Shown: positions 10,196 through 28,010 of the stretch, piece after piece | Position numbering within the stretch: the stretch's first letter is position 1 | Layout of the letters: each line of letters starts with the position of its first letter | The notes under the pieces: generated by a model | Databases searched by the model: none | What the model was told of the DNA's origin: nothing | The model's input: only the letters and a program-made list of their open reading frames with translations | Made by a program: the position numbers and the translations under genes | DNA from: a bacterium | GTDB taxonomy: Bacteria > Bacillota > Sulfobacillia > UBA995 | Assembly: GCA_031082145.1 (NCBI GenBank) | Contig: JAVHLP010000002.1 | Location: 95,214-159,213, forward strand | Length of the DNA: 64,000 nucleotides | Direction of reading: 5' to 3'

Positions 10196-10198
10196 AGG

Positions 10199-11179: not shown

Positions 11180-11192
11180 GGAGGGACAAACA

Positions 11193-11912: not shown

Positions 11913-12994
11913 CCTTGCGAGAGCGGGGGCTGGCCACCGGCCGGCTGCCCCCGGGGCCGAATAACACCATAACCGACGTGGCCGGAGTCAGGGTCGGTCA
12001 CGTCACCCTGATCCGGGGCGAAGGCCCCCTGCGGCCGGGGATGGGGCCGGTCCGCACCGGTGTTACCGCCATCTGGCCCCACGCCGGTGACCCCTTCCGG
12101 GAGAAGGTTAAGGCCGGCCTGCACGTCATCAACGGCTTTGGCAAGACCGTCGGCTTGAGCCAGGTGGCGGAACTGGGCCGCCTGGAGACTCCGATCCTGC
12201 TCACCAACACCCTCAACGTCGGGCTGGTGGCCGATGCCCTAGTGAGCGAGATGATAGCCGCCAACCCGGAGATCGGGGTGACCACGGGGACGGTCAACCC
12301 GGTGGTCGGTGAGTGCAGCGACGCCTGGCTTAACGACATCCAGGGGAGGCACGTGGGGGCCGATCACGTGGCCCAGGCCCTCCGGGAGGCGGCCGGCGGC
12401 CCCGTGGCAGGGGGCTCGGTGGGGGCGGGCACGGGCATGACCGCTTTCGGCTACAAAGCAGGCATCGGTTGCTCCTCCCGCGAGGTTGCCGCCGAGGGAC
12501 TCAGCTTCACGCTGGGGACCTTGGTGCTGGCCAATTTCGGCGCCCGCGGCGACCTGGCTATCGCCGGTGTCCCGGTGGGGCGCCTGCTCGGTGGGGAGTC
12601 TGCGGTCGAGCCGGTCACCGGCGGCTCAGTCATGGTAGTGCTGGCCACCGATGCCCCCCTCGGCTCACGGCAGCTCGGCCGGCTGGCCCGCCGGGCCCAG
12701 GTGGGTCTGGCCCGGACCGGTTCCCATGCCTTCCACGGAAGCGGCGACTTCGTGCTGGCGTTCTCCACTGTCAATGGGGAGCCCCATCTACCCCATCCCT
12801 CCGTCCGGCAGGAGAGCCGTCTGCTGGATCACTCCCCTCTGTTTGATCACCTGCTGCGTGGCGTGGCCGAGGCCGTCGAGGAAGCTGTCTATAACGCGCT
12901 GGTCTTGGCCGGCGCCATGACCGGGCGCGACGGCCACCATGCCGCCGCTTTGCCGGTGGACCAAGTGCTGGAACTGATCGACCGGGAGGGCTGA
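11909..12994 (+). CDS. P1/S58-family aminopeptidase (DmpA-like, L-aminopeptidase/D-esterase)
   Basis: The 361-residue product belongs to the self-cleaving DmpA family. NTITDVAGVRVGHVTL, TGTVNPVVGECSDAWLND and VGAGTGMTAFGYKAGIG are characteristic. Autoproteolysis is expected at Gly239-Ser240, in TGGS-VMVVLATDAPL, freeing Ser240 as N-terminal nucleophile. DmpA enzymes release N-terminal D- or L-residues or beta-peptides. The start GTG 11909 overlaps the stop of the preceding gene, with GGAGG upstream. With alr, a D-cysteine desulfhydrase-like enzyme and two amidases next to it, the gene fits a role in degrading D-residue or gamma-linked peptides. Confidence 0.9.
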   Translation: MTLRERGLATGRLPPGPNNTITDVAGVRVGHVTLIRGEGPLRPGMGPVRTGVTAIWPHAGDPFREKVKAGLHVINGFGKTVGLSQVAELGRLETPILLTNTLNVGLVADALVSEMIAANPEIGVTTGTVNPVVGECSDAWLNDIQGRHVGADHVAQALREAAGGPVAGGSVGAGTGMTAFGYKAGIGCSSREVAAEGLSFTLGTLVLANFGARGDLAIAGVPVGRLLGGESAVEPVTGGSVMVVLATDAPLGSRQLGRLARRAQVGLARTGSHAFHGSGDFVLAFSTVNGEPHLPHPSVRQESRLLDHSPLFDHLLRGVAEAVEEAVYNALVLAGAMTGRDGHHAAALPVDQVLELIDREG

Positions 12995-12998
12995 ATTC

Positions 12999-14039
12999 GT
13001 GTTGACCCAGGAGGCGCCGGAGGTCGTCGAGGTTCTCCGTGACGGCAGGCGGGAGAGCGTTCACCGGGGCGATGCAGCCGTGGCCGACACCGGCGGCCGG
13101 GTGCTCTTCGCCCTTGGCGACCCGTGGCGGCTGGTCTTTGCCCGGTCAGCCGTCAAGCCCTTCCAGGCCATGGCGGTAGTCGAGACGGGGGCGGCCGATC
13201 GCTTCGGGTTCACCCCGCCTGAACTGGCGGTCATGTCGGCCTCCCATGGCGGGGAGAGTCACCACGTCCAGGCCGTGGCATCCATCCTGAAGCGACTCGG
13301 CCTGGGACCGGAGGCCCTTCAGTGCGGGCCCCATCCTCCCGCGAACCCCGATGCCGCTCGGGTCCTGGTGGTAGAGAGACGACCTCCAGGTCCGCTGCAC
13401 AACAACTGCTCCGGCAAACATGCGGGCATGCTGGCGATCTGCCGTCAGCTCGATCTACCGCTGCGGGGCTACCTGGATCCCGCCCACCCGGTCCAGGAGA
13501 TGAACCGGGCCAACCTGGCCTTAATGGCCGGTCTTGCCCCCAGCGACATCGTGCTGGCGGGAGACGGCTGTGGCGCCCCGGCCTACGCCCTGCCGTTGGC
13601 GGCCCTGGCCCGGGCCTATGCCCGGCTAGTCTGCCCGTCAGACTTGCCGGGACCGAAGCAGTCCGCGGCCATGGTGGTAGTCGCCGCCATGCGAGCCCAC
13701 CCGGAGATGGTGGGAGGGACGGGGCGGCTCTGCACCCGCCTGATGGTGGCGGCGGGTGACCGGCTGGTCGCCAAGTCGGGGGCCGAGGGAGTCTACTGCG
13801 TTGGCGCATCCCGCCCCGCCTGGGGTCTGGCCCTCAAGATCCAGGACGGAGCATCCCGGGCGGTGCCGCCCGCCGTCATCGAGTTCCTGCTGCAGCTGGG
13901 AGAACTGAGCGGTCCGGCCGTGTCGGGTCTGGCCGACCTTCACTCGCCGCCCCTGCGCGACCACCAGGGCCAGGTCTGTGGAGCTCTGCGCCCGGTGGCG
14001 CGATTGCGGCACTCGAGAGGAGAGGAGCGGGGACAGTGA
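12999..14039 (+). CDS. L-asparaginase II family protein
   Basis: The 346-residue product matches the thermolabile asparaginase II family typified by Rhizobium etli AnsA, not the classical E. coli type. RSAVKPFQAMAVVETGA, SASHGGESHHV, NCSGKHAGMLA and GDGCGAPAYALPL are its conserved blocks. It should hydrolyse asparagine or a related amide to the acid and ammonia. GTG 12999 follows the preceding stop by 4 bases, with GGGAGGG about 10 bases upstream. Its own stop overlaps the DUF4438 start. Confidence 0.9.
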   Translation: MLTQEAPEVVEVLRDGRRESVHRGDAAVADTGGRVLFALGDPWRLVFARSAVKPFQAMAVVETGAADRFGFTPPELAVMSASHGGESHHVQAVASILKRLGLGPEALQCGPHPPANPDAARVLVVERRPPGPLHNNCSGKHAGMLAICRQLDLPLRGYLDPAHPVQEMNRANLALMAGLAPSDIVLAGDGCGAPAYALPLAALARAYARLVCPSDLPGPKQSAAMVVVAAMRAHPEMVGGTGRLCTRLMVAAGDRLVAKSGAEGVYCVGASRPAWGLALKIQDGASRAVPPAVIEFLLQLGELSGPAVSGLADLHSPPLRDHQGQVCGALRPVARLRHSRGEERGQ

Positions 14040-14899
14040 GGAGCAACCGCGAGCGACTGGTCAGGGTGTCCGTTCTGGGGGAGGTATCGCCACCGCAGAT
14101 GCGGCCGGGTTACCGGGTAGGAGCCGATGGCGTGGCCCGGCTGCTGCCGGGGACCGGCGGCATCACCTACAACGTCCGGGTGGGAGATCCCGCCCTGGGG
14201 TGGGCGGCCGATCACGTTGAGCCCGGGGTCAGCATCCAAGTCAAGGATGAGCGGGCCAACGCGGCCCTGAACACCCTGGCCTGCGTGGGAAACGAGGCCC
14301 TGGTGGTGTCGGGCGAGGCCCGCGGCGAGCGTGGGGTGGTCACCGGCAAGCACGGGGGGATCGAGCATGTGCTGGTGGATTTCCCTCCGGCGGTGCTGGA
14401 GCGGTTAGCCGTGGGCGACAAGGTCCAGGTGAAGGCATGGGGTCAGGGCCTGGAACTCGCAGACTTCCCCGGCATCCGGTGCATGAACCTGGATCCCGGC
14501 CTGCTGGACAAGATCCCGCTGACCGCTGCCGGGGGGGTCTTGCGGATGCCGGTGGCCGCTGAGGTGCCGCCCCAGCTCATGGGTTCGGGAGTGGGTTCTC
14601 CTGCTTCCGAGCGGGGAGATTACGACATCACCACCCAGGACCGGGAAGTCCTCCGGGAGCACGGTCTGCTGGACCTCAGGCTTGGTGACCTGGTGGCCGT
14701 GCGCGACCGGTCGGGCCGGTTCGGCCGGAGCTACCGGCGAGGGGCCATTGAGATCGGGGTGGTGGTGCACACGGACTCTTATCTGGCGGGTCATGGTCCC
14801 GGGTTGACCACCCTGCTCACCGCAGAGAACGGTGAGATCCAGCCTGTCCGGGACGCGGGAGCGAACCTGGCCATCTACCTCGGGCTTGTGTCCGGGTAG
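14036..14899 (+). CDS. DUF4438 domain-containing protein
   Basis: The 287-residue product matches the DUF4438 family: ITYNVRVGDPALGWAADH, CVGNEALVVSGEARG, GVVTGKHGGIEHV and the C-terminal EIGVVVHTDSYLAGHGPG. The family has no assigned reaction. The glycine-rich conserved loops suggest a soluble enzyme. It starts at GTG 14036, overlapping the asparaginase stop by 4 bases, so it is probably made together with the amidase/peptidase genes. Confidence 0.85.
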   Translation: MRSNRERLVRVSVLGEVSPPQMRPGYRVGADGVARLLPGTGGITYNVRVGDPALGWAADHVEPGVSIQVKDERANAALNTLACVGNEALVVSGEARGERGVVTGKHGGIEHVLVDFPPAVLERLAVGDKVQVKAWGQGLELADFPGIRCMNLDPGLLDKIPLTAAGGVLRMPVAAEVPPQLMGSGVGSPASERGDYDITTQDREVLREHGLLDLRLGDLVAVRDRSGRFGRSYRRGAIEIGVVVHTDSYLAGHGPGLTTLLTAENGEIQPVRDAGANLAIYLGLVSG

Positions 14900-14941: not shown

Positions 14942-16132
14942 GTGGCCCGGGTTGCCCTGGCGCGGTGTGAGAGCTACGGCCGGGAGGAGGTCGACCGGGC
15001 GGTCGGACGGGCGGTAGAAGCGGCCGGAGGCCTGGAGGGCCTGGTTCGCCCGGGCGCCACCGTGCTCCTGAAGGTCAACCTGCTCAGTCCCCAGCCGCCC
15101 GATCGAGCGGTGACCACCCACCCCGCCGTCGTGGAAGCGGTAGCCCGGCTGTTCTCGCGCATGGGCGCCAGGGTCTGGGTGGGCGACAGCTCGGGAGGGG
15201 TGACCGCCGGCCACAGCCGGACCGCCATTGCCTTCGAGGTCACAGGAGTGGCCAAGGCGGCCCGGGCCGCGGGGGCGGCACTGGTGAACCACGACCGGTC
15301 GGGGGTGGTGGAGGTCCAGAACCGCGGCCCCACCCGCGAATTGTTGCCCGTCTTCCATCTGGCCCGGCCGGTGACGGAGGCGGATGTCATCGTCAATCTG
15401 CCCAAGCTCAAGACGCATGCCCTCACCGTGCTCACCGGGGCGGTCAAGAACACCCTGGGGTGTGTCCCCGGCCTGGGCAAGATGGAATGCCACCGCCGGG
15501 CGCCCCGGCCCAGCGATCTGGCCCGGCTACTGGTAGATCTGCACCGTGCTGTCGCTCCCGCCCTCACCATCATGGACGGCGTGGTCGCCATGGAGGGAAA
15601 TGGACCGGCGGCGGGCCGCCCCCGCCACGTGGGGGCGATCATCGCCGGGAGGGATGGGGTCGCGGTGGACACGCTGGCGGCGATGATTGTGGGCGCCCCC
15701 CCGGCCGCCAACCTGACCACCGCGGCGGCGGTCGCCATGGGAGCGGGCCCGGCCCGCCTGGATCGGACCGACCTGGCCGGCGACTCACCGGCCGGACTCC
15801 GGGTGCAGGGGTTTCGCCTGCCTTCCGGAGCCTTTCTGCGGGCCCTGGCCGGCCGCTTGCCCCGGCCCCTGGCCCGGTGGGGAGTGGAGATGATCCGGGC
15901 CCGCCCCCACATCCATCCCGAACGCTGCACGGCCTGTGGCTTATGCGCGGCTAGCTGCCCGGTGGACGCGGTGGCGGAAGCCGGGGGCCGCCCCCGGATC
16001 GACCCGGCCCGTTGCGTGGGGTGCCTCTGTTGCCATGAACTCTGCCCGCAGGAAGCGGTCGAACTTCGTCACGACCGTTGGCTGGCCGGCCTGGCTCTCA
16101 GGGGGCGGCATAGCCGGCGAGGGGAGGCATAG
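14942..16132 (+). CDS. DUF362 protein fused to a 2[4Fe-4S] ferredoxin domain
   Basis: The 396-residue product has an N-terminal DUF362 domain (about 1-310; VLLKVNLLSPQPPDRAVTTHP, GDSSGG, NLPKLKTH, LGCVPGLGKMECHR). The C-terminal ferredoxin domain has two clusters of the C-x2-C-x2-C-x3-C type (CTACGLCAASCP and CVGCLCCHELCP). DUF362 proteins are iron-sulfur proteins of uncertain electron-transfer function. GGGAGGTGA lies 5-6 bases before GTG 14942. Confidence 0.9.
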   Translation: MARVALARCESYGREEVDRAVGRAVEAAGGLEGLVRPGATVLLKVNLLSPQPPDRAVTTHPAVVEAVARLFSRMGARVWVGDSSGGVTAGHSRTAIAFEVTGVAKAARAAGAALVNHDRSGVVEVQNRGPTRELLPVFHLARPVTEADVIVNLPKLKTHALTVLTGAVKNTLGCVPGLGKMECHRRAPRPSDLARLLVDLHRAVAPALTIMDGVVAMEGNGPAAGRPRHVGAIIAGRDGVAVDTLAAMIVGAPPAANLTTAAAVAMGAGPARLDRTDLAGDSPAGLRVQGFRLPSGAFLRALAGRLPRPLARWGVEMIRARPHIHPERCTACGLCAASCPVDAVAEAGGRPRIDPARCVGCLCCHELCPQEAVELRHDRWLAGLALRGRHSRRGEA

Positions 16133-16135
16133 ATC

Positions 16136-16606
16136 TTGAGCGCCGAGATGGACAGCGGGACGCGCGGGACCGAGTCTCTCGAGTGGCGGGCCCACCTGTT
16201 CGTGTCCCGGCCCGCCCGGAGCGCGGTGGTGGTGGCCGTGGTGGCGTCGGGAGTACTCGTTGTGCAACTGGCCTTCGGGCGCACCGCGCTAACCGTGCTC
16301 TCCTTGATCCTGGTGGTTGGGGCCCTCAGTCAGTTCTTCTTCCCCCTGAGCTACCGCCTGACCGACCGGGGGGTGACAATCCGGCACCTGGGGATCTTCA
16401 CCGACACTGTAAGCTGGGAGGACCTTACCGGCTACCGGCACCTCGGTGACTGCCTGCTGCTCCTCAGGCGCAGGCGCAAGAGGAAAGGCGGGATCCTTCT
16501 CTACTTCCGGGGCAACGGGGAGAACGTGATCGGCATGGTAAACAGGCATCTACCTCGCCTGGAGGGAGCATCACGGCAGAATGGTAATGCCGGCAGGAGG
16601 AGTTAG
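16136..16606 (+). CDS. Small membrane protein with PH-like domain
   Basis: The 156-residue product starts at TTG 16136, three bases after the DUF362 stop. Two hydrophobic segments (about 28-48 and 50-68) precede a basic soluble part containing YRLTDRGVTIRHLG and VSWEDLTGYRH, the pattern of bacterial PH-like (YdbT/bPH_2-type) domains. Such proteins are membrane-bound with a cytoplasmic PH fold; function unknown. It ends just before the large membrane cluster. Confidence 0.6.
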   Translation: MSAEMDSGTRGTESLEWRAHLFVSRPARSAVVVAVVASGVLVVQLAFGRTALTVLSLILVVGALSQFFFPLSYRLTDRGVTIRHLGIFTDTVSWEDLTGYRHLGDCLLLLRRRRKRKGGILLYFRGNGENVIGMVNRHLPRLEGASRQNGNAGRRS

Positions 16607-16666: not shown

Positions 16667-17473
16667 ATGATGCTTGCGCAAGACGGACCCGCCCTGGGTA
16701 TCTTCACGGCCGGCAGCGTGGCTGCGTTCTTCGCCTTGCTGGTCATCTGTGGCCTGGTCTACATGATGATCCAGCGGGCCCGGGCCGGCCTGAAGATCCC
16801 CGAGATCCGCAAGATAGCCGGCCTGGAGGCCATTGACGAGGCCATCGGCCGGGCCACCGAGATGGGGCGTCCCGTGCACTTCACCCCCGGGCTCGGCGAT
16901 CCCTACAACATCCAGACCATCGCTTCCTATGCCATGCTGGGCCATGTGGCCAAGCGCTGCGCCCAGTACGACACCCGGCTGCTCCAGACCAACGTGGACC
17001 CCTTCGTCCTGGCCATCAACAACGAGGTGATCCGCCAGGCCTACCTGGAGGCGGGGCGGCCGGATGCCTTCAACCCCGATGACATCACCTTCCACTCCAC
17101 CGAGCAGTTCGCCTACGCCGCTTCGGTGCTTGGCCTGTATGAGCGCGAGCGGCCGGCGGCCAACATCATGTTCGGCGCCTTCTGGGCCGAGTCCATGCTG
17201 TTCGCCGAGGGCGGAGCTTACCTCGGGTCCATCCAGATCGGGGCGACCGCCAACACCCACCAGATCGCGTTCTTCGTGGCCGCCTGCGACTACACCCTGA
17301 TCGGCGAGGAGATGTTCGCCGCCAGCGCTTACCTGTCCAAGGAGCCGGTCCTAACCGGCACCGTGGTGGGGCAGGACTGGGCGCGCATCGGGGTCTTCGC
17401 CCTGATCATCCTGGGTACGATCCTGGCGCAGATAGGCGACACCAACTGGCTCGCGACGATCCTGAAGAAGTAG
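16667..17473 (+). CDS. DUF6754-like membrane-anchored protein (cluster gene 1)
   Basis: The 268-residue product has an N-terminal membrane helix (about 11-33), a soluble central domain, and a C-terminal helix (about 244-262). The core contains FTPGLGDPYNIQTIASYAML, HSTEQFAYAASVLGLYERE and GAYLGSIQIGATANTHQIAFF, which resemble DUF6754; the function is unknown. GGAGGAGGTG lies 8 bases before ATG 16667, one of the strongest ribosome sites here. It opens a same-strand cluster of membrane proteins and GlmL-type ATPases, presumably one functional unit. Confidence 0.7.
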   Translation: MMLAQDGPALGIFTAGSVAAFFALLVICGLVYMMIQRARAGLKIPEIRKIAGLEAIDEAIGRATEMGRPVHFTPGLGDPYNIQTIASYAMLGHVAKRCAQYDTRLLQTNVDPFVLAINNEVIRQAYLEAGRPDAFNPDDITFHSTEQFAYAASVLGLYERERPAANIMFGAFWAESMLFAEGGAYLGSIQIGATANTHQIAFFVAACDYTLIGEEMFAASAYLSKEPVLTGTVVGQDWARIGVFALIILGTILAQIGDTNWLATILKK

Positions 17474-17537
17474 GACGAGTCCCCGGCTGCCCGCCGGCAA
17501 CAGCGGGCCGCCCCTGCCAGACCTGGGCAGTGAGGAG

Positions 17538-18176
17538 GTGTCTAGCGAGATGCGTAAGGAATTCCCGATGCTGCTGACCGTAGTGGCCGCCCTGACCGTC
17601 ATCCTCTCCCAGTTCTTCTTCCACATAGCCGAGTGGAACCTCATGGACGTTCTCGACAAGTGGCTCAACGTGATGTGGGGGATCGCCATCGGTCTCGGCA
17701 TCGTGAACCTGAGCGTCGTCCACGGCAAGAAGATCATGCGGCGAGCGCCCGGGTTCTACAACAGCGTGGTGCTGCTCGCCATCCTGTACGTCTATGCCAT
17801 CCTGGGCCTCTGGACAACGACCCAGGGCTATTACCACGCCTGGATTTTCGACAACGTATATGCCCCGCTGGATTCAACGGTCTTCGGACTGGTCGCCTTC
17901 TTCATCACCACCGCCGCCTACCGGGCCTTCAAGGTCCGTACCTGGGAGGCCACGGTGATGCTGCTGGCGGGCATGATACTGCTTCTGGGTTCGGCGCCCA
18001 TCGGCGAGGCCATCTGGGCCGATTGGGCCCACCTGCGGCAGTGGTTCCTTGACATACCCAATGCCGCCGGTATGCGCGGCATAGTGCTGGGGATCTATCT
18101 CGGCGGCTTCGCCACCGCCCTGCGGGTCATGCTCGGGCTTGAGCGAGCGTGGATGGGCGCGATGGGAGGCCGGTAG
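17538..18176 (+). CDS. Six-helix membrane protein (cluster gene 2)
   Basis: About 212 residues with six predicted membrane helices, roughly at 10-30, 42-62, 75-97, 112-132, 140-162 and 178-198. No family motif is recognised. ATG 17550 is an alternative start; GAGGAGGTG lies about 11 bases before it. It is spaced 64 bases after the DUF6754-like gene and 30 bases before the next, which supports co-expression. Confidence 0.7.
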   Translation: MSSEMRKEFPMLLTVVAALTVILSQFFFHIAEWNLMDVLDKWLNVMWGIAIGLGIVNLSVVHGKKIMRRAPGFYNSVVLLAILYVYAILGLWTTTQGYYHAWIFDNVYAPLDSTVFGLVAFFITTAAYRAFKVRTWEATVMLLAGMILLLGSAPIGEAIWADWAHLRQWFLDIPNAAGMRGIVLGIYLGGFATALRVMLGLERAWMGAMGGR

Positions 18177-18206
18177 AAGGCCTGACCGGGAAGGAGGTGT
18201 GAGTTC

Positions 18207-19028
18207 GTGCAGAAGCTGCAGGCGATAGGCCGCCGTCCGATTTATGTGCTGGTGTTCCTGGTGGGTATCATAGCGTTCCTCTGGCCGCTGGGCTTGCCGG
18301 TCAGTGTCCAGCCGGACACCCTGACCGTGTACAAGGCTCTGGACGCCCTACCGGCCGGTTCGCTGGTGTGGTTCGGGGCCGAGTATGACGTGTCCACCAA
18401 GCCGGAACTGGACCCGCAGGTCGTCGCGGTGTTCCACCATCTCTTCCAGAAGAACCTGAAGCCCGTGATCTACGGCATGTGGCTCCGGGGCCCGACTATC
18501 GTGCAGGGCTTGGTGGAGCCGATCGCCGAGGAATATGGGAAGCAGTACGGCGTGGACTGGATCAACCTCGGGCACAAGCCGGGGACCAGCACCAACCTTC
18601 GCCTCATGACCTCCAACATCACGGAGGGCGCGGCGGGGGTCGACCACTTCGGGAAACCCCTTGCGAACTACCCGATCATGAGGAACGTCACCGCCCTGGA
18701 TAAGGCCAGCGGTTTCCGCCACGTCGTCATCGCCGAGGCGGGGACCCCCGGCAACCGGGAGTACCTCGGTATCGTGGTCAAGGAGAAGGCCATTCCCATG
18801 AGCGTGGCCACCCTTACCATGTCCATCGCCGAGAACAAGCCCTTCGTGGTGGCGGGCGACTTCACCGGCCAGATCCCCGGGCTGCGGGGTGCGGCCGAAT
18901 ACGAGTACCTGGTGGGCAAGGCGGGCAAGGGTGCCTCGGGCACCGATGCCCAATCGCTGGCCGCCCTCCTGGTGTTCGGACTGGTGGTGCTCGGGAATAT
19001 CGGATACCTGACCAGCCCCCGGCGATGA
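18207..19028 (+). CDS. Membrane-anchored extracytoplasmic protein (cluster gene 3)
   Basis: The 273-residue product has an N-terminal helix (about 12-32), a soluble domain of about 200 residues and a C-terminal helix (about 250-268), so the domain is probably displayed on one face of the membrane. The domain has an alternating alpha/beta pattern (SLVWFGAEYD, HLFQKNLKPVIYGMW, INLGHKPGTSTNLRLM). No family is recognised. GGAAGGAGGTGTGAG precedes the GTG start. The two-helix plus domain layout mirrors cluster gene 1. Confidence 0.7.
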   Translation: MQKLQAIGRRPIYVLVFLVGIIAFLWPLGLPVSVQPDTLTVYKALDALPAGSLVWFGAEYDVSTKPELDPQVVAVFHHLFQKNLKPVIYGMWLRGPTIVQGLVEPIAEEYGKQYGVDWINLGHKPGTSTNLRLMTSNITEGAAGVDHFGKPLANYPIMRNVTALDKASGFRHVVIAEAGTPGNREYLGIVVKEKAIPMSVATLTMSIAENKPFVVAGDFTGQIPGLRGAAEYEYLVGKAGKGASGTDAQSLAALLVFGLVVLGNIGYLTSPRR

Positions 19029-19080
19029 GCCGGGAGTCCATCCTTCACGCGTCCGGTAGCGGACGGGGAGGTGAGAGATC

Positions 19081-19728
19081 GTGAGCTTTGATTTTCCGAG
19101 CTTGCTGAGTGCGGACGGTGCACCGGTGTGGGCGGCCGCCCTCTGCACCTTGGCCATCTGGACTTTCCTGATCCGGGACAACCCCATCTACCGCCTTGCC
19201 GAGCACGTGATGGTGGCCCTGGCCGCCGGGTGGGGAGTCGGCTACTACTACTACAGCTACATCCACCCGGTCATCACGGAAGAGCTGATCGGCCAGGGGC
19301 GCTGGTTCTACATCATCCCGATCATCCTGGGCCTGTTCCTGTACACCCGGTTCATCCCGTCGGTGTCGTGGCTGGCCCGCTATCCCATGTCGGCCTACAT
19401 CGGCTACGGCGCCGGCTACTACCTGGCCTTCAACGCGAAGCCCTTCCTGAGCCAGGTAACCGCCAGCTTCGTCTCGTTCAGCCAGCCCGCCTTCACCGGC
19501 ACTCTCAACCAGATCGTCTTCTTCATCTGCATCCTGGCGTCGCTGGTGTACTTCTTCTTCACGATCAGCAAGGAACGCCCGGCCATGGGCTATGCCTCGC
19601 AACTGGGGAAGATCGTCATCCTGATAGCCCTGGGCGCGCACTTCGGCAACACCGTGCTCTACCGGTACAACCTGTTCCTGGGCCGGCTCTCCTATGTCCT
19701 GGGCGAATGGATGGGGCTACTCCAGTAG
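19081..19728 (+). CDS. Six-helix membrane protein (cluster gene 4)
   Basis: The 215-residue product has about six predicted membrane helices with aromatic-rich ends (GYYYYSYIHP, RWFYIIPIILGLFLYTRF, VYFFFTI). No known transporter motif is seen. GGGGAGGTGAG precedes GTG 19081. It is the last of four membrane proteins before a hairpin and the first GlmL-type ATPase gene. Confidence 0.7.
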   Translation: MSFDFPSLLSADGAPVWAAALCTLAIWTFLIRDNPIYRLAEHVMVALAAGWGVGYYYYSYIHPVITEELIGQGRWFYIIPIILGLFLYTRFIPSVSWLARYPMSAYIGYGAGYYLAFNAKPFLSQVTASFVSFSQPAFTGTLNQIVFFICILASLVYFFFTISKERPAMGYASQLGKIVILIALGAHFGNTVLYRYNLFLGRLSYVLGEWMGLLQ

Positions 19729-19755
19729 CCTCCGCCGGCCTGAGCGCTTGAGCAA

Positions 19756-19784
19756 GGAAGCCCACCCCTTCCGGGTGGGCTTCC
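19756..19784 (+). terminator. Strong hairpin between membrane genes and first GlmL-type gene
   Basis: A perfect 12-bp stem (GGAAGCCCACCC/GGGTGGGCTTCC) with a 5-base loop starts 28 bases after the membrane gene stop. No T-run follows, only C-rich sequence, so it may act as a partial terminator or RNA-processing site that sets different levels for the two halves of the cluster. Confidence 0.55.
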
Positions 19785-19817
19785 CCCACAACCTGGAGTC
19801 GAGGGGGAGAGCCGCTG

Positions 19818-21647
19818 GTGGACGACCGGCAGCCACGGACCATCCTGGCCACCGACGTGGGCAGCACCACGACCAAGGCCTTACTCATCGAGAAACAGGG
19901 TGAGGAGTACCGGTTGAGCTTCCGCGGCGAGATGCCCACCACGGTGGAGGCGCCCTGGGAGAACGTGATGGTCGGCGTGCGCAAGGCCATACGCCGGCTG
20001 GAGGAGCTCAGCGGCAGGCGGTTCCTGACCCCGGAGGGAGTGCTCCTCAGACCCCGCCGGGGTGACGACGGCGTCGACTACTATGTGTCTACCTCCAGCG
20101 CCGGCGGGGGTCTGCAGATGATGGTGGCCGGGCTGGTGAGCACCGTCTCGGCCTCCAGCGCCAACCGGGCGGCGCTCGGCGCCGGGGCGGTGGTGCTGGA
20201 TGTCATAGCCGTCGACGACGGGCGCGCCACTTCGGAGCAGATCACCCGCATAACCGAGCTCCGGCCGGACATCATCCTCATGTCGGGTGGCGTGGACGGC
20301 GGCTCGGTGACCCACCTGGCGGCCATCGCCGAGACGATCGTGCAGGCGAGCCCCCAGCCCCGGTTCGGCGCCACCTACAAGCTCCCGCTGGTCTACGCGG
20401 GCAACCGCGATGCCGCCGATCTGGTGGAGGCGGTGGCCGGCGAGGTGATGGACGTGCACGCGGTCGAGAACCTTCGCCCCCGGCACGACCTGGAAAACCT
20501 GGGCCCGGCCCGCGAGACCATCCATGACCTCTTCATGAACCACGTCATGGCCCAGGCGCCGGGCTACGGCGAGCTCATGGGGTGGGTGGACGTCACCATC
20601 ATGCCCACCCCCGGCGCGGTGGGGCGCATCATCATGGTGATGGCCGAGCGCTACCGGGCCAACATTATCGGGGTCGACATCGGCGGGGCCACCACCGACG
20701 TGTTCTCCGACTTCGGCGGCACCTTCACCCGCACCGTAAGCGCCAACCTGGGCATGAGTTACAGCATCTGCAATGTCCTGGAGGAAGCCGGCTTTGAGAA
20801 CATCCGGCGCTGGGTGCCCTTCGAGGTCGACCAGCGCACCCTCTCCGACTGGGTGGCCAGCAAGATGGTGCGGCCGACGACCTTGCCCCAGACCCTGGAC
20901 AATCTCATGTTGGAGCAGGCGCTGGCCCGGGAAGCCCTCCGCCTCTCCTTCGAGCATCACCGTAGCCTGGCCCGCAAGGTGGAGAAGGAGGAGATCGTGG
21001 CCGGCTGGCGTTCCCAGCAGAAGATCTTCAGGTCGGTGGGCGAGGAGGTCATCGACCTCAAGCGCCTGGGCATGCTGGTGGGCAGCGGCGGGGCCCTGTC
21101 CCACGCCCCGCGGCGGGCCCAGGCTGCCCTGATGCTGCTGGATAGCTTCCAGCCGGAAGGGGTTACCCAGCTCGCGGTGGACAGCATATTCATGATGCCT
21201 CACCTGGGGGTGCTATCCAGCACCCACCCCGACATCGCCGCCCAGGTTTTCGACCTTGACTGCTTGGTTCGTCTGGGTACCTGCATCGCGCCGGCAGGAA
21301 GAGGACGGGACGGACAGCCCGCGGTCACCGTGCGCCTGCATCCCGCCGGTGGGAAGGTCGAGGACACACGGGTGGCCTTTGGCGAGTTGGTCCGGCTGCC
21401 CCTCGCCGTCGGGCAGACCGCACGGGCGGAGATCCTGCCCGCGGGGGGCTTCGACGTGGGGGCCGGCCGGGGACGTCCGGTTACCGCCGAGGTAGAGGGA
21501 GGCCTGGTGGGGGTCATCGTGGATGCCCGCGGCCGCCCGCTGGAGCTGCCCGCCGATGACCGCAAGCGCCGGGCGAAACTCCTGGCCTGGATGGAACAGC
21601 TTGACGCCTATCCCCCGGAAGCCCTCCGGGGTCTGAAGGGGGGTTAG
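19818..21647 (+). CDS. GlmL/MutL-family actin-fold ATPase, copy 1
   Basis: The 609-residue product matches the family typified by glutamate mutase accessory protein GlmL (MutL). The first phosphate motif ATDVGSTTTKA is at about 11-21. The second, GVDIGGATTDVFS, is near residue 290. STSSAGGGLQMMVAG and MSGGVDGGSVTH are further family blocks. In known GlmL systems the protein repairs or activates adenosylcobalamin mutases. No mutase gene lies in this window, and the partners here are membrane proteins and a beta-rich protein, so the real client is unknown. The start is GTG 19818, with GAGGGGGAGA upstream. Copy 2 lies at 23.8-25.7 kb. Confidence 0.88.
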   Translation: MDDRQPRTILATDVGSTTTKALLIEKQGEEYRLSFRGEMPTTVEAPWENVMVGVRKAIRRLEELSGRRFLTPEGVLLRPRRGDDGVDYYVSTSSAGGGLQMMVAGLVSTVSASSANRAALGAGAVVLDVIAVDDGRATSEQITRITELRPDIILMSGGVDGGSVTHLAAIAETIVQASPQPRFGATYKLPLVYAGNRDAADLVEAVAGEVMDVHAVENLRPRHDLENLGPARETIHDLFMNHVMAQAPGYGELMGWVDVTIMPTPGAVGRIIMVMAERYRANIIGVDIGGATTDVFSDFGGTFTRTVSANLGMSYSICNVLEEAGFENIRRWVPFEVDQRTLSDWVASKMVRPTTLPQTLDNLMLEQALAREALRLSFEHHRSLARKVEKEEIVAGWRSQQKIFRSVGEEVIDLKRLGMLVGSGGALSHAPRRAQAALMLLDSFQPEGVTQLAVDSIFMMPHLGVLSSTHPDIAAQVFDLDCLVRLGTCIAPAGRGRDGQPAVTVRLHPAGGKVEDTRVAFGELVRLPLAVGQTARAEILPAGGFDVGAGRGRPVTAEVEGGLVGVIVDARGRPLELPADDRKRRAKLLAWMEQLDAYPPEALRGLKGG

Positions 21648-21651
21648 AGCC

Positions 21652-22974
21652 ATGAACAGCGGCTACCAGGTGACGATGGTCCGAAAGGTGCGCAAGCTGC
21701 CCCTGCCGGGAGAAGTCCTGGTACAACCGGGCCAGCGGGTGGAACCGGAGACGCCGGTGGCCCGCATCGACCTGCGGCCCGGCATTCCCTGGGTGCTGCC
21801 GGTCGGCCGCCTCCTGGGCATCGAGTCCGACCTGCTCCCCGCGGCCATGTTACGGCAGGTGGGTGACCGGGTGCGGCTTCGGGAGGTCATCGCCGTCGCT
21901 CAGAAAGGCATCTACGGCCGCAAGGAGTACGAGTCCCCCACCGACGGGGTGATCGAGGACATCTCCCACCGTTCGGGCCGGGTGGTCATCCGCGAGGAGT
22001 TCGGCCGCGAGGAACCGCCGATAAGCTTCGACGTGGCCTTTGAGATCGGCTGCAAGCCCCGTGACCTTCCCCGGAACATGATGAAGAAGGTGGGCGACGA
22101 GATAAAGCGGGGACAGGTGGTGGCCAAGAAAGGGGAGACCCAGGCTTTCTTCACCAAGACGGCGCTGGCCCCCATATCCGGCGTGATCACCGAGGTCAAC
22201 GCCCAGACCGGCTACGTCACCATCTCCCGTCCTTTCAAGGAGGTGATCGTCCGCGCCTACGTCAGCGGCGCGGTCGCGACCCTCCTCCCCGGGCGGGGGG
22301 CCGTCGTTGAGACACCGGCGGCGAGGATCATAGGAGCCTTCGGGGTGGGCCGCGAGGGCCACGGGCGGCTCCGGGTGGCGACAGCGGATGTCCTGGAGCC
22401 GAACGCGATCACTCCCGAAGACGAGGGGGCCATCCTGGTGGCCGGAGGCCCGGTCAGCCGGGAGACTCTTCGCCGGGCCCTGGAATGCGGGGTCAGGGGA
22501 ATCATCGCCTCAACTGCGGGCTACCTGGACATCGTCGAGGCCCTCGGCATCAAGGTGGGGGTAGGGATTACCGGTCAGGAGGATATCCCACTGACGCTCA
22601 TCCTCACCGAGGGCTTCGGCCGCCTGTCCATGCGGGAGAACTCCTTCGCCGCCCTGCGCGGCCTGGAGGGGAGACTGGCTTGCGTCAACGGCGCCACCCA
22701 GATCCGGGCCGGCGCCATCCGTCCGGAGGTCGTGGTCCCGTTCCCCGGCTGGGATGGTCCCCTGGCGGAGGAGACGGGACCCGAAGAGGACCTCGCTCTC
22801 GGCCAGCGGGTGCGGATCATAAGCGAACCCTACTTCGGCCAGATGGGCGTGGTGGCCGAGTTGCCGCGGCAACCCGAGGTCCTGCCCACCGAGGCGCGAG
22901 TGCCGGTGGTGGTGGTGGCTCTCGCCGACGGCACCCCGGCCAGGATCCCTCGGGCCAACGTGGAGGTGTTCTGA
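21652..22974 (+). CDS. Barrel-sandwich/KOW-like partner protein, copy 1
   Basis: A 440-residue protein starting 4 bases after the GlmL-type gene. The N-terminus KLPLPGEVLVQPGQRVEPET has the look of a biotinyl/lipoyl-like barrel-sandwich hybrid, and a second such segment occurs near 135-185 (KVGDEIKRGQVVAKKGET). No biotinylation or lipoylation lysine motif (MKM or DK) is visible. A Rossmann-like middle contains GVGITGQEDIPLTLILTEGFG and LACVNGATQIRAG. The C-terminus (LGQRVRIISEPYFGQMGVV ... RIPRANVEVF) resembles a KOW-type SH3 fold. It pairs with copy 2 at 25.7-26.8 kb. Function unknown. Confidence 0.75.
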   Translation: MNSGYQVTMVRKVRKLPLPGEVLVQPGQRVEPETPVARIDLRPGIPWVLPVGRLLGIESDLLPAAMLRQVGDRVRLREVIAVAQKGIYGRKEYESPTDGVIEDISHRSGRVVIREEFGREEPPISFDVAFEIGCKPRDLPRNMMKKVGDEIKRGQVVAKKGETQAFFTKTALAPISGVITEVNAQTGYVTISRPFKEVIVRAYVSGAVATLLPGRGAVVETPAARIIGAFGVGREGHGRLRVATADVLEPNAITPEDEGAILVAGGPVSRETLRRALECGVRGIIASTAGYLDIVEALGIKVGVGITGQEDIPLTLILTEGFGRLSMRENSFAALRGLEGRLACVNGATQIRAGAIRPEVVVPFPGWDGPLAEETGPEEDLALGQRVRIISEPYFGQMGVVAELPRQPEVLPTEARVPVVVVALADGTPARIPRANVEVF

Positions 22975-23017
22975 CCCGTCCGGCTGGGAATACTCGGAGC
23001 CGGGGGGTCGAGAGCCC

Positions 23018-23308
23018 TTGCTGGACTCCGAGCGGGCCGAACGCCTGGTGAGGGAGATGGCCCGGGCCATACAGGCCCGGGGGTTGACCGTCCCCGCCCT
23101 GCTCCTGGGAGAGGCCTGCCGCCCTCTCACTTTCCTGGCCAGCCAGTGGCTCCATGCCTTCGGCCCCTTCGTGGCAGGCGCGCTGAACCTGGCCATGCCC
23201 GGTCTGGACGAGAACCGGGTGGCCGAGTACGCTTACCTCCTGGAGAACCGCTCTAACCTGGACGCCTTGCTTGACCGCCTGGAGGAGACGGCCAACGCGG
23301 GAGGATAA
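23018..23308 (+). CDS. Small helical protein, copy 1
   Basis: The 96-residue product is mostly helical: an N-terminal amphipathic helix, then LTVPALLLGEACRPLTFLASQWLHAFGPF and an LLENRSNLDALLDRLEE end. It shares a clear pattern with the next gene (x-TPA-LL-EA-RPL-F-SQ-H-F-P and ENR-N-D-L-DRL-E), so the two are paralogues. TTG 23018 or CTG 23021 could be the start. It sits between the two GlmL-type units. Confidence 0.65.
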   Translation: MLDSERAERLVREMARAIQARGLTVPALLLGEACRPLTFLASQWLHAFGPFVAGALNLAMPGLDENRVAEYAYLLENRSNLDALLDRLEETANAGG

Positions 23309-23364
23309 CACCCGACCGCCGCCGAAGTCGGGAGGGCACCGGGCCGGTGGCGGAGGTGGGGTAG

Positions 23365-23778
23365 GTGGCGGGTTCGGTTCCCCCGGCAGGGGATGAACTC
23401 ACCCCGGAGCGACGGGACGAGATCATCGACTGGATCGTGGAGCGGGCCGCCCGGGGGGGCCTGATCACGCCCGCCATGCTCCTCATTGAGGCTCACCGCC
23501 CCTTGAGCTTCATCGGCAGCCAGGCGGTCCATTTCTTCTCGCCTGTCATCGGCGCCATCGTGGACCCCCGGCGGGTTGACGAGTTGGCCCTGTTGATGGA
23601 GAACCGGGATAACATTGACCTCCTGGTGGACCGCCTGCAGGAACGCCTTGACCAGGATCAGGCCCGTCGGCCCCCTAGACCCCGCCAAACCCGCGGCTGG
23701 CGGGGGTTCTTGGCTCGTCTCCTTGGCTCCTCGAGTCGAGATCCCGGCGGCGATCCGCCAACCCCCCCTGCCCCCTGA
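23365..23778 (+). CDS. Small helical protein, copy 2
   Basis: A 137-residue paralogue of the preceding gene (LITPAMLLIEAHRPLSFIGSQ, LMENRDNIDLLVDRLQERL) with an added basic, proline-rich C-terminal tail (about 95-137) that looks disordered. GGAGGTGG lies 7 bases before GTG 23365. The conserved hydrophobic helix could peripherally associate with membrane; unproven. It directly precedes the second GlmL-type gene. Confidence 0.65.
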   Translation: MAGSVPPAGDELTPERRDEIIDWIVERAARGGLITPAMLLIEAHRPLSFIGSQAVHFFSPVIGAIVDPRRVDELALLMENRDNIDLLVDRLQERLDQDQARRPPRPRQTRGWRGFLARLLGSSSRDPGGDPPTPPAP

Positions 23779-23845
23779 CGGGGGAGGGTTTCCCTTCCCC
23801 CGAGGCGAAGCATGGCTCAAGACCGTAGCCAAGGGGGAGCGCTTC

Positions 23846-25690
23846 TTGGCCAACGATAGCAGCCCCGGGTCCATCCTGGCCACCGACTGCGGCAGTACTA
23901 CCACCAAAGCGATCTTGATCGACCGCGACGCTACCGGCTACCGGCTGGTCGCCCGGGGCGAGGCCCCCACCACCGTGGAAGCCCCGTTCGAAGATGTTAC
24001 CCTGGGTGTTCGCAACGCCGTCGGGGAACTTGAGGAACTCACCGGCCGGTCTCTCCTGGGCCCTGACGGTCTGCCCAGTCCCGGCCGTCCCGGATCACCC
24101 GGTCTGTTCCTGTCCACCTCCAGTGCCGGGGGCGGCCTGCAGATGATGGTGGCCGGTGTCATCAAGTCCATGACTGCCGAGAGCGCCCAGCGGGCGGCCT
24201 TGGGGGCGGGGGCCATTGTCATGGACACGATAGCCATTGATGACGGCCGGCGGCCCCATGAGAAGATCCGCCGCATCCGCGACCTCCGTCCCGATATGAT
24301 CGTCCTCTCTGGAGGCGTCGACGGGGGGACGGTCACCCATGTGGCCCAGGTCGCCGAGCTGATCGCCGCCGCCCGCCCCCGGCCCCGGCTGGGGAGTTCC
24401 TTCCGGTTGCCCGTCATCTACGCCGGGAACGTCAAGGCCAGGGAGCACATCCGCAAGGTCTTGGGCGAGTTGGTCGACCTCCGGGTAGTGGCCAACCTGC
24501 GCCCGGTCATGGAGAGGGAGGAGCTGGGGCCGGCCCGGGAGGAGATTCACCACCTGTTTATGGAGCATGTCATGGCCCAGGCTCCTGGCTATGCCACGCT
24601 CAGCGGATGGACGCCGGTCCCCATCATGCCCACCCCCGGGGCAGTAGGCCTGGCCATGCAGAGCGTGGCCCGGCTGCATGGCACCAGCGTCATAGGGGTG
24701 GATATCGGCGGGGCCACCACTGATGTGTTCTCGGTGTTCGGAGCCGACCAGGAGCTGTTCGTCCGGACGGTAAGTGCCAACCTGGGCATGAGCTATAGTG
24801 TCTCCAACGTCCTCCTGGAGGCGGGGGCCGACAACGTTCTCCGCTGGCTGCCGCTGCCGGTCAGCCCCGCCGATTTGACAAACCGGATTCGCAACAAGAT
24901 GATCCGTCCGACCACCATTCCCCAGACCCTCGAGGAACTACTCATAGAGCAAGCCTTAGCCCGCGAGGCGTTGAGGCTGGCCCTGGAGCACCACCGTACC
25001 CTGGCCCGGGGCCTGAAGGGGATCCAGCGGCTGCGGCACGTGGGAGAGACGTTCAGCCAGGAAGCGACCGGGCAGACCCATATCAACCTCATGGAACTGG
25101 GCTTCCTGGTCGGGTCGGGCGGCGCCCTCTCCCATGCCCCTCGCCGCATGCAGGCCGCTCTCATGCTCCTCGATGCTTTCCAGCCGGAAGGGGTTACCCG
25201 GCTGGCCGTTGACAGCATCTTCATGATGCCGCAACTGGGGGTCTTGTGGGCGGTTCACCCCGAGCCGGCGGCCCAGGTGTTCGAGCGGGATTGCCTCGTT
25301 CACCTGGGCACCGCCGTGGCCCCGGTCGGGGTGGGCCGCCCGGGAGAGCGGGTACTCACCGTCCGTGGCGTTCTTCCCACGGCCGGAGAGGTAGAAGAGG
25401 AACTGCTCGCAGGTCAACTGCGGGTGCTCCCGCTGGCCCCCGGGGAGCGGGCTGACCTCGAACTCTCCCCCGCCTGGGGGTTCGACGTCGGAGCCGGAAA
25501 AGGCCGCAGGGCGAGGGTCGGAGTCCAGGGCGGCGTCTGCGGGCTGATCCTGGACGGGCGGGGGCGTCCCCTCATCCTCCCCCCGGATCCGCCGGAGCGC
25601 CGCCGCAAACTGGTGGAGTGGTTCCTGAGTGTTGATGCCTATCCCGCGGACCTGCTCAAGCGCCAGGCGGGGCCGCCCATCAGGGGGTGA
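23846..25690 (+). CDS. GlmL/MutL-family actin-fold ATPase, copy 2
   Basis: The 614-residue paralogue of copy 1 has the same landmarks: ATDCGSTTTKAILID at about 12-26, STSSAGGGLQMMVAG, LSGGVDGGTVTHVAQ, MPTPGAVG, GVDIGGATTDVFSVFG and GGALSHAPRRMQAALMLLDAFQPEGVTRLAVDSIFMMP. I chose TTG 23846 because GGGGGAG lies 6 bases upstream and the protein then begins close to the phosphate-1 strand as copy 1 does. The two copies align over their whole length, so this is a duplicated gene, not a fragment. Confidence 0.86.
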   Translation: MANDSSPGSILATDCGSTTTKAILIDRDATGYRLVARGEAPTTVEAPFEDVTLGVRNAVGELEELTGRSLLGPDGLPSPGRPGSPGLFLSTSSAGGGLQMMVAGVIKSMTAESAQRAALGAGAIVMDTIAIDDGRRPHEKIRRIRDLRPDMIVLSGGVDGGTVTHVAQVAELIAAARPRPRLGSSFRLPVIYAGNVKAREHIRKVLGELVDLRVVANLRPVMEREELGPAREEIHHLFMEHVMAQAPGYATLSGWTPVPIMPTPGAVGLAMQSVARLHGTSVIGVDIGGATTDVFSVFGADQELFVRTVSANLGMSYSVSNVLLEAGADNVLRWLPLPVSPADLTNRIRNKMIRPTTIPQTLEELLIEQALAREALRLALEHHRTLARGLKGIQRLRHVGETFSQEATGQTHINLMELGFLVGSGGALSHAPRRMQAALMLLDAFQPEGVTRLAVDSIFMMPQLGVLWAVHPEPAAQVFERDCLVHLGTAVAPVGVGRPGERVLTVRGVLPTAGEVEEELLAGQLRVLPLAPGERADLELSPAWGFDVGAGKGRRARVGVQGGVCGLILDGRGRPLILPPDPPERRRKLVEWFLSVDAYPADLLKRQAGPPIRG

Positions 25691-26823
25691 CCGGGGTGGC
25701 TCACGCGTACACTCCCGGCCTCAAGGTCAGCCGGGAGACCACACTGCGCAAGGTGCGCCGCCTGCCTCTGGCCGGCGAGGTCCTGGTACACCTGGGGCAG
25801 CGGGTGGCTCCGGCCACCATCGTGGCCCGGACCGAGGTACCGGGAGATCCTCACACGGTCAACGTGGCCAATATCCTGGGGATCGAACCGGGTGAGGTTC
25901 CCGCCCGGATGACCGTGGCCGCCGGCGAGGTCGTGACCCGCGGGCAGCTCATCGCCAGTTCTCGCGGGTTTCTGGGCTTGAGCCGGCGAGAGGCTCGTTC
26001 ACCCGTGGACGGGCGGGTGGAGATGGTCTCGGGGATCACCGGGCAGGTGACCCTGCGCGAGCACCCCGTCCCAGTGGAGATCAACGCCTACCTATCCGGG
26101 GTGGTAGGGGAGGTCTTGCCCGGAGAGGGAGTGGTCGTCGAGTCCACTGGAGCCCTGGTTCAGGGCATCTTTGGGGTCGGTGGCGAGACCCACGGCCCCC
26201 TCCGGGTGGCGGTCGATGACCCCGGTCAGCCGCTCGAGGCCCACCACGTCCGGGACGACGACCGGGGGCGAGTCCTGGTGGGCGGATCGCTGGTGTCCCA
26301 GGAGGCGATCAGGAAGGCCATCGCGGTGGAGGTAGCCGCCCTGGTGGCCGGCGGTGTGGTGGACCAGGATCTGACCGACCTCCTGGGACGCAGCATTGGC
26401 GTGGCCATCACCGGCCACGAGGACATCCCGCTGACCCTTCTGGTGACCGAGGGGTTCGGGCCCATGCCCATGGCCCCGCGCACTCTCCAGCTACTGCAGG
26501 CCCTGGATGGCCAGACTGCCTGCGTCAACGGCGCCACCCAGATCCGGGCGGGGGTGCTGCGGCCGGAGATCATCATTCCCTATCCCGACCGGCCGGCCGG
26601 CGGCGAGCCCAGCGTTTGCCAAGCCACCGGTTTGGCCCCCGGCACGCTGGTCCGGATCATCAGGGAACCCGCCTTCGGCAAGCTTGCCCGGGTGCGGGAG
26701 CTCCCGCCGGAACTGGTCGCCATTGAGACCGAGGCCAGGGTGAGAGTCCTCCGGGCCCGGCTTGAGGATGGCGCTGTCCTGACCGTCCCTCGAGCCAACG
26801 TTGAGATCATGGAAGTAGACTGA
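25687..26823 (+). CDS. Barrel-sandwich/KOW-like partner protein, copy 2
   Basis: A 378-residue paralogue of copy 1, overlapping the end of the GlmL-type gene by 4 bases. Shared blocks are LRKVRRLPLAGEVLVHLGQRV, GVAITGHEDIPLTLLVTEGFG, ACVNGATQIRAGVLRPEIIIPYP and the closing VPRANVEIMEVD. It is about 60 residues shorter than copy 1, missing part of the second barrel-sandwich region. Tight coupling of each such gene to a GlmL-type gene suggests that the products act as a pair. Confidence 0.75.
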   Translation: MTGVAHAYTPGLKVSRETTLRKVRRLPLAGEVLVHLGQRVAPATIVARTEVPGDPHTVNVANILGIEPGEVPARMTVAAGEVVTRGQLIASSRGFLGLSRREARSPVDGRVEMVSGITGQVTLREHPVPVEINAYLSGVVGEVLPGEGVVVESTGALVQGIFGVGGETHGPLRVAVDDPGQPLEAHHVRDDDRGRVLVGGSLVSQEAIRKAIAVEVAALVAGGVVDQDLTDLLGRSIGVAITGHEDIPLTLLVTEGFGPMPMAPRTLQLLQALDGQTACVNGATQIRAGVLRPEIIIPYPDRPAGGEPSVCQATGLAPGTLVRIIREPAFGKLARVRELPPELVAIETEARVRVLRARLEDGAVLTVPRANVEIMEVD

Positions 26824-26837
26824 GGAGGGGAAGCCTG

Positions 26838-28010
26838 GTGGGGGAGCTTCTTATCAGGGGGGCAGCCGTCTACACGGTTGGCGGCGAGGTCCTGGAGCGG
26901 GGAGACGTCCTCATCCGGGAGGGCCGGATAGCCGCCGTCGGCACGGGGCTCCAGGCCGGCCCCGGGGCGGCGATCCGGGAGGCCGGGGGACTGACGCTGA
27001 CCCCGGGCCTTATCGATGCCCATGCCCACGTGGGGATCTGGGAGGACGGGCTGGGCTGGGAGGGCAATGACACCAACGAGATCACCGACCCGCTCACTCC
27101 TCACCTGAGGGCCATCGACGGCGTCAACCATGAAGATCAGGGCTTGCGGGACGCCGTGGCGGGCGGGGTCACCGCCGTGTGGTGCGCCCCGGGGAGCGCC
27201 AACGTCATCGGGGGCGAGGGGGCGACCATTCGCACCCACGGCTGCTCCCTCGACGACCTGATCTTGAAAGCGCCCTCCGGGCTGAAGGCGGCCCTGGGGG
27301 AAAACCCCAAGCGGGTCTACAGCCAGCAGAAGAAGATGCCTTCCACCCGCATGGCTTCGGCCGCCCTGCTCAGGGATGTTCTGGTCAAGGCTCAGAACTA
27401 CCTGGCCAAGCAGCAGCGGGGAAACGCCGATCCCGACAAGGCGCCGGAGCGCGACCTCCGGCTGGAAGCCGTGGCCCGGGTGCTGAAGGGCGAGATTCCC
27501 CTGCGCATGCACGCTCACCGCGCCGATGACATCTTCACCGCCCTCCGGATCGCAGCCGAATTCGGCCTGACGCTCAGCATCGAGCATTGCACCGAAGGCC
27601 ATAAGATCGCCGACCATCTGGCCCGCCGGAACGTTCCCGCCGTGGTGGGGCCGACCCTGACGGCCCGGATGAAGGTCGAACTGAAGGATCGGAGCCTGGC
27701 GACGCCCGGCATCCTGGCCCGGGCCGGGGTGAAGGTAGCCCTCTGCACCGATCACCCGGTCATGCCCGTTCATCATCTGCCCCTTGTTGCCGCCATGGCC
27801 ATACGGGAGGGAATGGACGAGACCGACGCCCTCCGGGCGGTTACCATCAACGCCGCCGAGATCGCGGGCGTGGACGATCGGCTGGGGACCGTGGAGCCGG
27901 GCAAGGATGCCGATCTGGTCCTCTGGACCGGCCCTCCGTTCGGTTTCCGGACCCGGGTGGCCGCCACCATAATGCGGGGCGAGGTGGTATTCGAGGCGGG
28001 AGGGGGTTGA
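26838..28010 (+). CDS. Amidohydrolase (imidazolonepropionase-like)
   Basis: The 390-residue product is a metal-dependent amidohydrolase with a TIM barrel flanked by a beta-sandwich. The first metal site is DAHAHVG near residues 60-66. Further ligands are in RMHAHRADD, EHCTEGH and the aspartate of CTDHPV. The substrate is not evident. It starts at GTG 26838, 15 bases after the partner protein gene, with GAGGGGAAG upstream, so it may be a downstream member of the GlmL-type cluster. Homologues are often listed as imidazolonepropionase-related. Confidence 0.87.
   Translation: MGELLIRGAAVYTVGGEVLERGDVLIREGRIAAVGTGLQAGPGAAIREAGGLTLTPGLIDAHAHVGIWEDGLGWEGNDTNEITDPLTPHLRAIDGVNHEDQGLRDAVAGGVTAVWCAPGSANVIGGEGATIRTHGCSLDDLILKAPSGLKAALGENPKRVYSQQKKMPSTRMASAALLRDVLVKAQNYLAKQQRGNADPDKAPERDLRLEAVARVLKGEIPLRMHAHRADDIFTALRIAAEFGLTLSIEHCTEGHKIADHLARRNVPAVVGPTLTARMKVELKDRSLATPGILARAGVKVALCTDHPVMPVHHLPLVAAMAIREGMDETDALRAVTINAAEIAGVDDRLGTVEPGKDADLVLWTGPPFGFRTRVAATIMRGEVVFEAGGG

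Follow-up and report, generated by a model that had tools for sequence, protein, structure and literature searches.

What is achieved by four membrane proteins encoded in one run with two copies of a GlmL/MutL-type ATPase? The question is raised by positions 16667-26823 of a 64,000-nucleotide stretch of contig JAVHLP010000002.1 (the whole stretch is called the window below), where ten intact open reading frames (ORFs), all on the (+) strand and with coordinates unchanged from a preliminary description of the same DNA, are arranged in the order M1 (DUF6754)-M2-M3-M4 and then GlmL-P-H-H-GlmL-P. P stands for a barrel-sandwich/KOW partner, H for a small helical protein and PHm for a small membrane protein encoded upstream; at the loci compared below, genes were called with a simple codon-usage script, good enough for their order, not for exact starts. 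The preliminary description had proposed one membrane-associated ATPase system. The analysis bears out the single system and divides it into two separable modules; the four-protein membrane unit, present in bacteria and archaea and previously undescribed, looks like a new modular, probably ATP-driven nutrient uptake system.

The membrane part comprises: (i) M1 (16667..17473), with an N-terminal transmembrane (TM) helix, a predicted cytoplasmic alpha/beta domain and a C-terminal TM helix; (ii) M2 (17538..18176), a polytopic subunit that follows M1 in every complete cassette; (iii) M3 (18207..19028), doubly anchored, with a predicted extracytoplasmic alpha/beta domain; and (iv) M4 (19081..19728), again polytopic. 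The start codon of M1 is the ATG at 16667, preceded by GGAGGAGGTGA. With 322 bits against PF20539 (DUF6754; 2.3e-96), for which the gathering cut-off is 27 bits, M1 is a member of that family, and M2, M3 and M4 returned zero Pfam or NCBIfam family matches.

A complete M1-M2-M3-M4 run on one strand has been found at 89 of the 96 distinct M1 genes, that is, the loci read at length, and its recurrence at 89 distinct loci places the four-gene order beyond chance. Most of the incomplete loci end at region or contig borders; at L200 and in one copy at L076, M1 is adjacent to M4. More than one cassette per genome is common, with 14 present in genome G217 (a single contig of 2.3 Mb) and 15 in G219 (1.5 Mb). 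Across 88 complete cassettes the subunit distances are inter-correlated at 0.73-0.81, and therefore each cassette has diverged as a whole. Conservation is highest in M1 (mean identity 0.44 versus 0.34-0.35), also among paralogues of the same genome. No M1 relative was returned by a plasmid search. Tandem cassettes occur at L207, L056 and L068 and a tail-to-tail pair at L203, which suggests local duplication as a route of expansion. A small membrane protein of ~130-160 aa, which may replace PHm, recurs near archaeal cassettes or H genes (L169:10559-10957, L190:957-1370 and L196:8439-8909).

The association of the cassette with GlmL-P has been followed in three genome samples: a phylum draw (199 genomes), the class (154) and an archaeal phylum draw (250), in which DUF6754 was found in 16, 49 and 7 genomes, respectively. 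Within the class, P is present in 49/49 DUF6754 genomes and in 56/154 overall. In the phylum draw, with P counted at E < 1e-50, 14 genomes are common to the 16 with DUF6754 and the 15 with P, and DUF6754 occurs without P in G019, which is 78% complete, and in G095, which has a divergent copy. Strong matches to DUF6754 and P fall in the identical 7/250 archaeal genomes. The corresponding Fisher values of 5e-33 (class), 2e-18 (phylum draw) and 9e-14 (archaeal) are overstated, as the genomes are related. Gene order is shared as well: a Bathyarchaeote locus (L169) reads M1-M2-M3-M4-x-H-GlmL-P on a single strand, and an archaeal contig (L190) carries M1-M4, H, GlmL-P and again M1-M4, with one opposite-strand gene separating H from GlmL. 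Taken together, the same gene order and the genome-wise co-occurrence in bacteria and archaea mean that the association spans two domains of life and is independent of linkage.

Physical linkage is the less common state. M1-M4 shares a cluster with GlmL-P in 13/34 main-type clusters; most cassettes lie by themselves, and a genome with many of them has a single GlmL-P pair or a few. The idea that GlmL always lies beside the membrane genes was consequently rejected, the link being one of genome content only for the cassettes that lie apart. The four membrane genes and the ATPase genes are separable modules, a feature that the preliminary description had not foreseen. The M1-M4 unit, in the genomes surveyed, almost never occurs without a GlmL-P pair; the gene families are not scattered, and from one genome to the next the GlmL-type and partner genes go together with DUF6754, as expected of a single system. 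M1-M4 and GlmL-P very probably constitute one system.

The ATPase part begins with GlmL-a (19818..21647) and contains a second copy, GlmL-b (23816..25690, an approximate start, the longest ORF beginning at 23615). As had been noticed from the sequence, both are of the GlmL/MutL type: they contain the MutL domain PF13941 (4.5e-117 and 1.9e-123) with both conserved nucleotide-binding motifs, in common with the GlmL/MutL and Or-4 mutase accessory proteins (PF13941, NF040745, NF040744, TIGR01319). However, they miss all the NCBIfam cut-offs (210/475 bits for NF040745, 202-206/600 for NF040744 and 148-154/204 for TIGR01319). In a midpoint-rooted tree, 66 P-associated GlmLs and 31 mutase-type GlmLs are each monophyletic (support 0.97 and 1.0), and the P-associated proteins are ~150 residues longer than their mutase GlmL/Or-4 relatives. 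P is the next gene after GlmL in 66/67 P-clade genes with a readable neighbour, a count from which the mutase GlmL of the window genome itself is omitted, and P was found at 0/31 mutase-type loci. No mutase or cobalamin gene lies among the surrounding genes examined, as the preliminary description had stated, and the P-associated GlmLs are distinct from those of the mutases. A role of the window GlmLs as mutase accessories was rejected on the missed cut-offs, the separate clade and the lack of an adjacent mutase. The window genome supplies a control: an ornithine degradation operon at ~55-63 kb of G000:C22 has its own GlmL, and P is absent. That operon (G000:C22:55383-63281, L146) looks complete, with 2,4-diaminopentanoate dehydrogenase and an Or-4-type GlmL, and its ornithine aminomutase is fused, the alpha and B12-binding parts lying within one 867-aa frame. 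BadF/BcrA-type and hydantoinase/oxoprolinase actin-fold ATPases (PF01869, PF01968) are distant relatives of the window GlmLs, matched weakly in Pfam below the curated cut-offs, and the cluster contains no reductase or hydantoinase partner subunit. A literature search on GlmL, confined to an open-access library, gave nothing relevant.

Each GlmL is followed by its P, the longer P-a at 21652..22974 (RnfC_N, 7.7e-06) and the shorter P-b, identified by alignment and family search, at 25687..26823. The lipoyl-like and KOW-like folds first ascribed to these partners correspond to an RnfC_N barrel-sandwich domain in 11/13 members of the P family and a weak KOW match in 2/13, and the architecture is a barrel-sandwich domain, a middle domain of its own and a KOW-like end. 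The first of these is of the kind found in RnfC/NqrA N-terminal domains (PF13375, PF05896), but no further Rnf/Nqr domains or subunits (Fe-S, flavin, redox) were found, nor any redox motif in M1-M4. Searching PDB sequences with the GlmL, P and M3 profiles gave only weak NusG/Spt5 KOW matches, for P. An additional stretch of ~75 residues in P-a resembles a second barrel-sandwich unit; it is missing from P-b and from the sole P of L052, L053 and L054, and the two P copies of the double module have therefore diverged in a consistent manner. H1 (23018..23308) and its paralogue H2 (23365..23778), the small helical proteins of the preliminary description, are present and belong to one family. H occurs in 32 of the 34 main-type clusters, PHm in 24 and M1 in 13, while 18 have two GlmLs. 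A third, more distant GlmL-P pair (G000:C28:146469-149622; L126, 7425-10629), scoring 811 and 368 bits against the window profiles, stands apart from M1-M4, and similar lone pairs lie beside housekeeping genes at L128, L131, L133 and L134.

The AlphaFold2 models of M1 (pLDDT 92) and M3 (pLDDT 94) are confident and alike: a TM helix, six strands alternating with helices, and a second TM helix at the C-terminus. The positive-inside rule predicts the domain of M1 inside in 85/88 cassettes and that of M3 outside in 79/88; the two domains should thus lie on opposite sides of the membrane, a topology and fold order supported by charge distribution and modelling. Homology between M1 and M3, or between M2 and M4, was undetectable by profile comparison and was set aside; the models of M1 and M3 agree solely in the order of secondary-structure elements, and an ancient duplication is only a suggestion from these models.

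The genes adjoining the cassettes point to nutrient uptake, a direction that the preliminary description had not proposed. C-N bond hydrolases (M20, M24, M28, S9, TldD/PmbA, DUF885, amidohydrolases, creatininase and AAT-type) account for ~27/129 adjoining genes versus ~4/131 genes at least six genes away at the same loci (Fisher 5e-6), an approximate count restricted to families printed with at least two members in the tallies. ThiD/ThiM-type kinases, families seen in the Pfam neighbour tallies, lie by our own reading of the sequence beside three cassettes of different genomes, one of them archaeal (L061, L082 and L185). This is the pattern expected of a family of uptake systems: catabolic neighbours of different kinds, a large number of divergent paralogues, and a single ATPase module common to them.

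The best mechanism, put forward tentatively although it may quite possibly be right, is a modular transporter with an actin-fold ATPase, for which we infer ATP coupling, the direction of uptake, the substrates and a physical complex. M1-M4 would form a heteromeric membrane unit in which the polytopic M2 and M4 make the substrate path, M3 recognises and binds the substrate outside, and the double-anchored M1 inside relays an ATP-driven change. That change would come from GlmL, its obligate partner P and H, acting as a common cytoplasmic module that docks on M1 at its conserved cytoplasmic face and spends ATP to drive or reset the membrane unit. The unit would have been duplicated and diversified, each version serving a different small nutrient (a peptide, an amino-acid derivative, an amide or a thiamin precursor). 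It counts in favour of this mechanism that the best-conserved membrane subunit, M1, is the one predicted to face the cytoplasm. The wider proposal, that an actin-type ATPase and a barrel-sandwich partner power many interchangeable four-subunit membrane units and so form a new class of primary active transporters in bacteria and archaea, is somewhat more doubtful, though a real possibility.

The logic would be that of the ECF transporters, in which many substrate-specific membrane units use one common ATP-hydrolysing module (PMC4820897, PMC7755397); by analogy, the genome pattern of many cassettes and few GlmL-P pairs fits a shared energising module. The two systems are unrelated: no ABC ATPase, EcfT or S-component was found in the ten proteins, and here the membrane part has four subunits, the ATPase an actin fold, and transport is the putative function.

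Several points weigh against a transporter. Neither M1 nor M3 resembles a solved transporter or binding protein, and a Foldseek comparison of their models with the PDB gave nothing at E <= 1e-3, only generic alpha/beta matches. Housekeeping genes are among the neighbours of some cassettes, the hydrolase tally is a rough one, no Rfam riboswitch was found near 40 cassette loci or within the window, and ABC permeases are not clearly depleted in cassette-rich genomes. To our knowledge, moreover, the characterised relatives of GlmL all serve soluble enzymes.

The main rival gives GlmL-P the role of a chaperone or reactivase, dependent on ATP like its mutase relatives, that assembles, repairs or remodels M1-M4, the membrane proteins themselves being ATP-independent, for example secondary transporters. 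Those MutL-family proteins that accompany mutases carry an accessory-protein annotation, a general chaperone would equally suit a few GlmL-P pairs serving many cassettes, and the second-type pairs stand alone beside housekeeping genes. The lack of any counterpart of P at the 31 mutase-type loci and the link of the module to cassettes in both bacteria and archaea speak against this rival, but are compatible with a chaperone all the same. This alternative is unlikely, if a serious one.

A second alternative takes M1-M4 for membrane sensors or enzymes, such as membrane hydrolases or proteins that regulate the catabolic genes close by, with GlmL-P as a regulatory or phospho-relay module. Alpha/beta domains on both sides of the membrane could pass a signal, M1 has many invariant polar residues (G61, R62, E65, D208, E215), and histidine kinases and response regulators adjoin some cassettes; however, the commonest neighbours are hydrolases of diverse kinds, Pfam and NCBIfam revealed no signalling or catalytic domain of known type in M1-M4, and the fold search described above gave no solved match, which makes this explanation improbable. 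A third reading, in which M1-M4 and GlmL-P belong to separate systems brought together by common ancestry or by the lifestyle of amino-acid fermenting anaerobes, is very improbable, for although kinship inflates the Fisher values and P occurs without DUF6754 in seven class genomes, and DUF6754 without P in 2/199 genomes of the phylum draw, the archaeal genome sets are identical, gene order is the same in archaea and bacteria, and the two modules share a cluster in 13 of the 34 cases.

The surroundings of the ten genes, on the (+) strand as far as the amidohydrolase at 26838..28010, complete the description. PHm (16136..16606; 156 aa) generally opens the GlmL-P cluster, lying immediately 5' of M1 or GlmL in 24/34 main-type clusters, and by its neighbourhood belongs to the module as a further member. 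Between M4 and GlmL-a a hairpin with a perfect 12-bp stem is located at 19756..19784; the preliminary description had regarded it as splitting at least two operons, and the stem is real, but it has no T tract and is not among the predictions of the terminator scan. Upstream, catabolic genes for an alanine racemase, a PALP enzyme, peptidases C26 and S58, asparaginase II and a DUF4438 protein (9002..14899) resemble genes adjoining GlmL-P clusters elsewhere, and are followed in the same run by a DUF362 and 4Fe-4S ferredoxin-like protein (14942..16132), kept in some relatives only (L072, L052). An amidohydrolase lies immediately 3' of P-b (26838..28010), and a close relative is found immediately 3' of an archaeal M1-M4 cassette (L032). 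Genes for DUF4438 (window 14036-14899) and DUF483 (window 28014-28907) are recurrent beside GlmL-P modules in several genomes.

Of the four membrane subunits only M1 matches a family, a DUF (DUF6754/PF20539) for which an open-access library, the only one searched, contains no literature match. A conserved machine that reaches ~15 paralogues although the genomes measure only 1.5-2.3 Mb is likely to be of central importance to its hosts, and the genes around a cassette, for example those for thiamin salvage, amidohydrolases or peptidases, allow a guess at its likely substrate. We know of no actin-type ATPase fold in ATP-driven transport. If GlmL-P does power the membrane unit, ATP-driven transport would gain a further ATPase fold, and the annotation ‘MutL/GlmL’ would be misleading for an entire clade.

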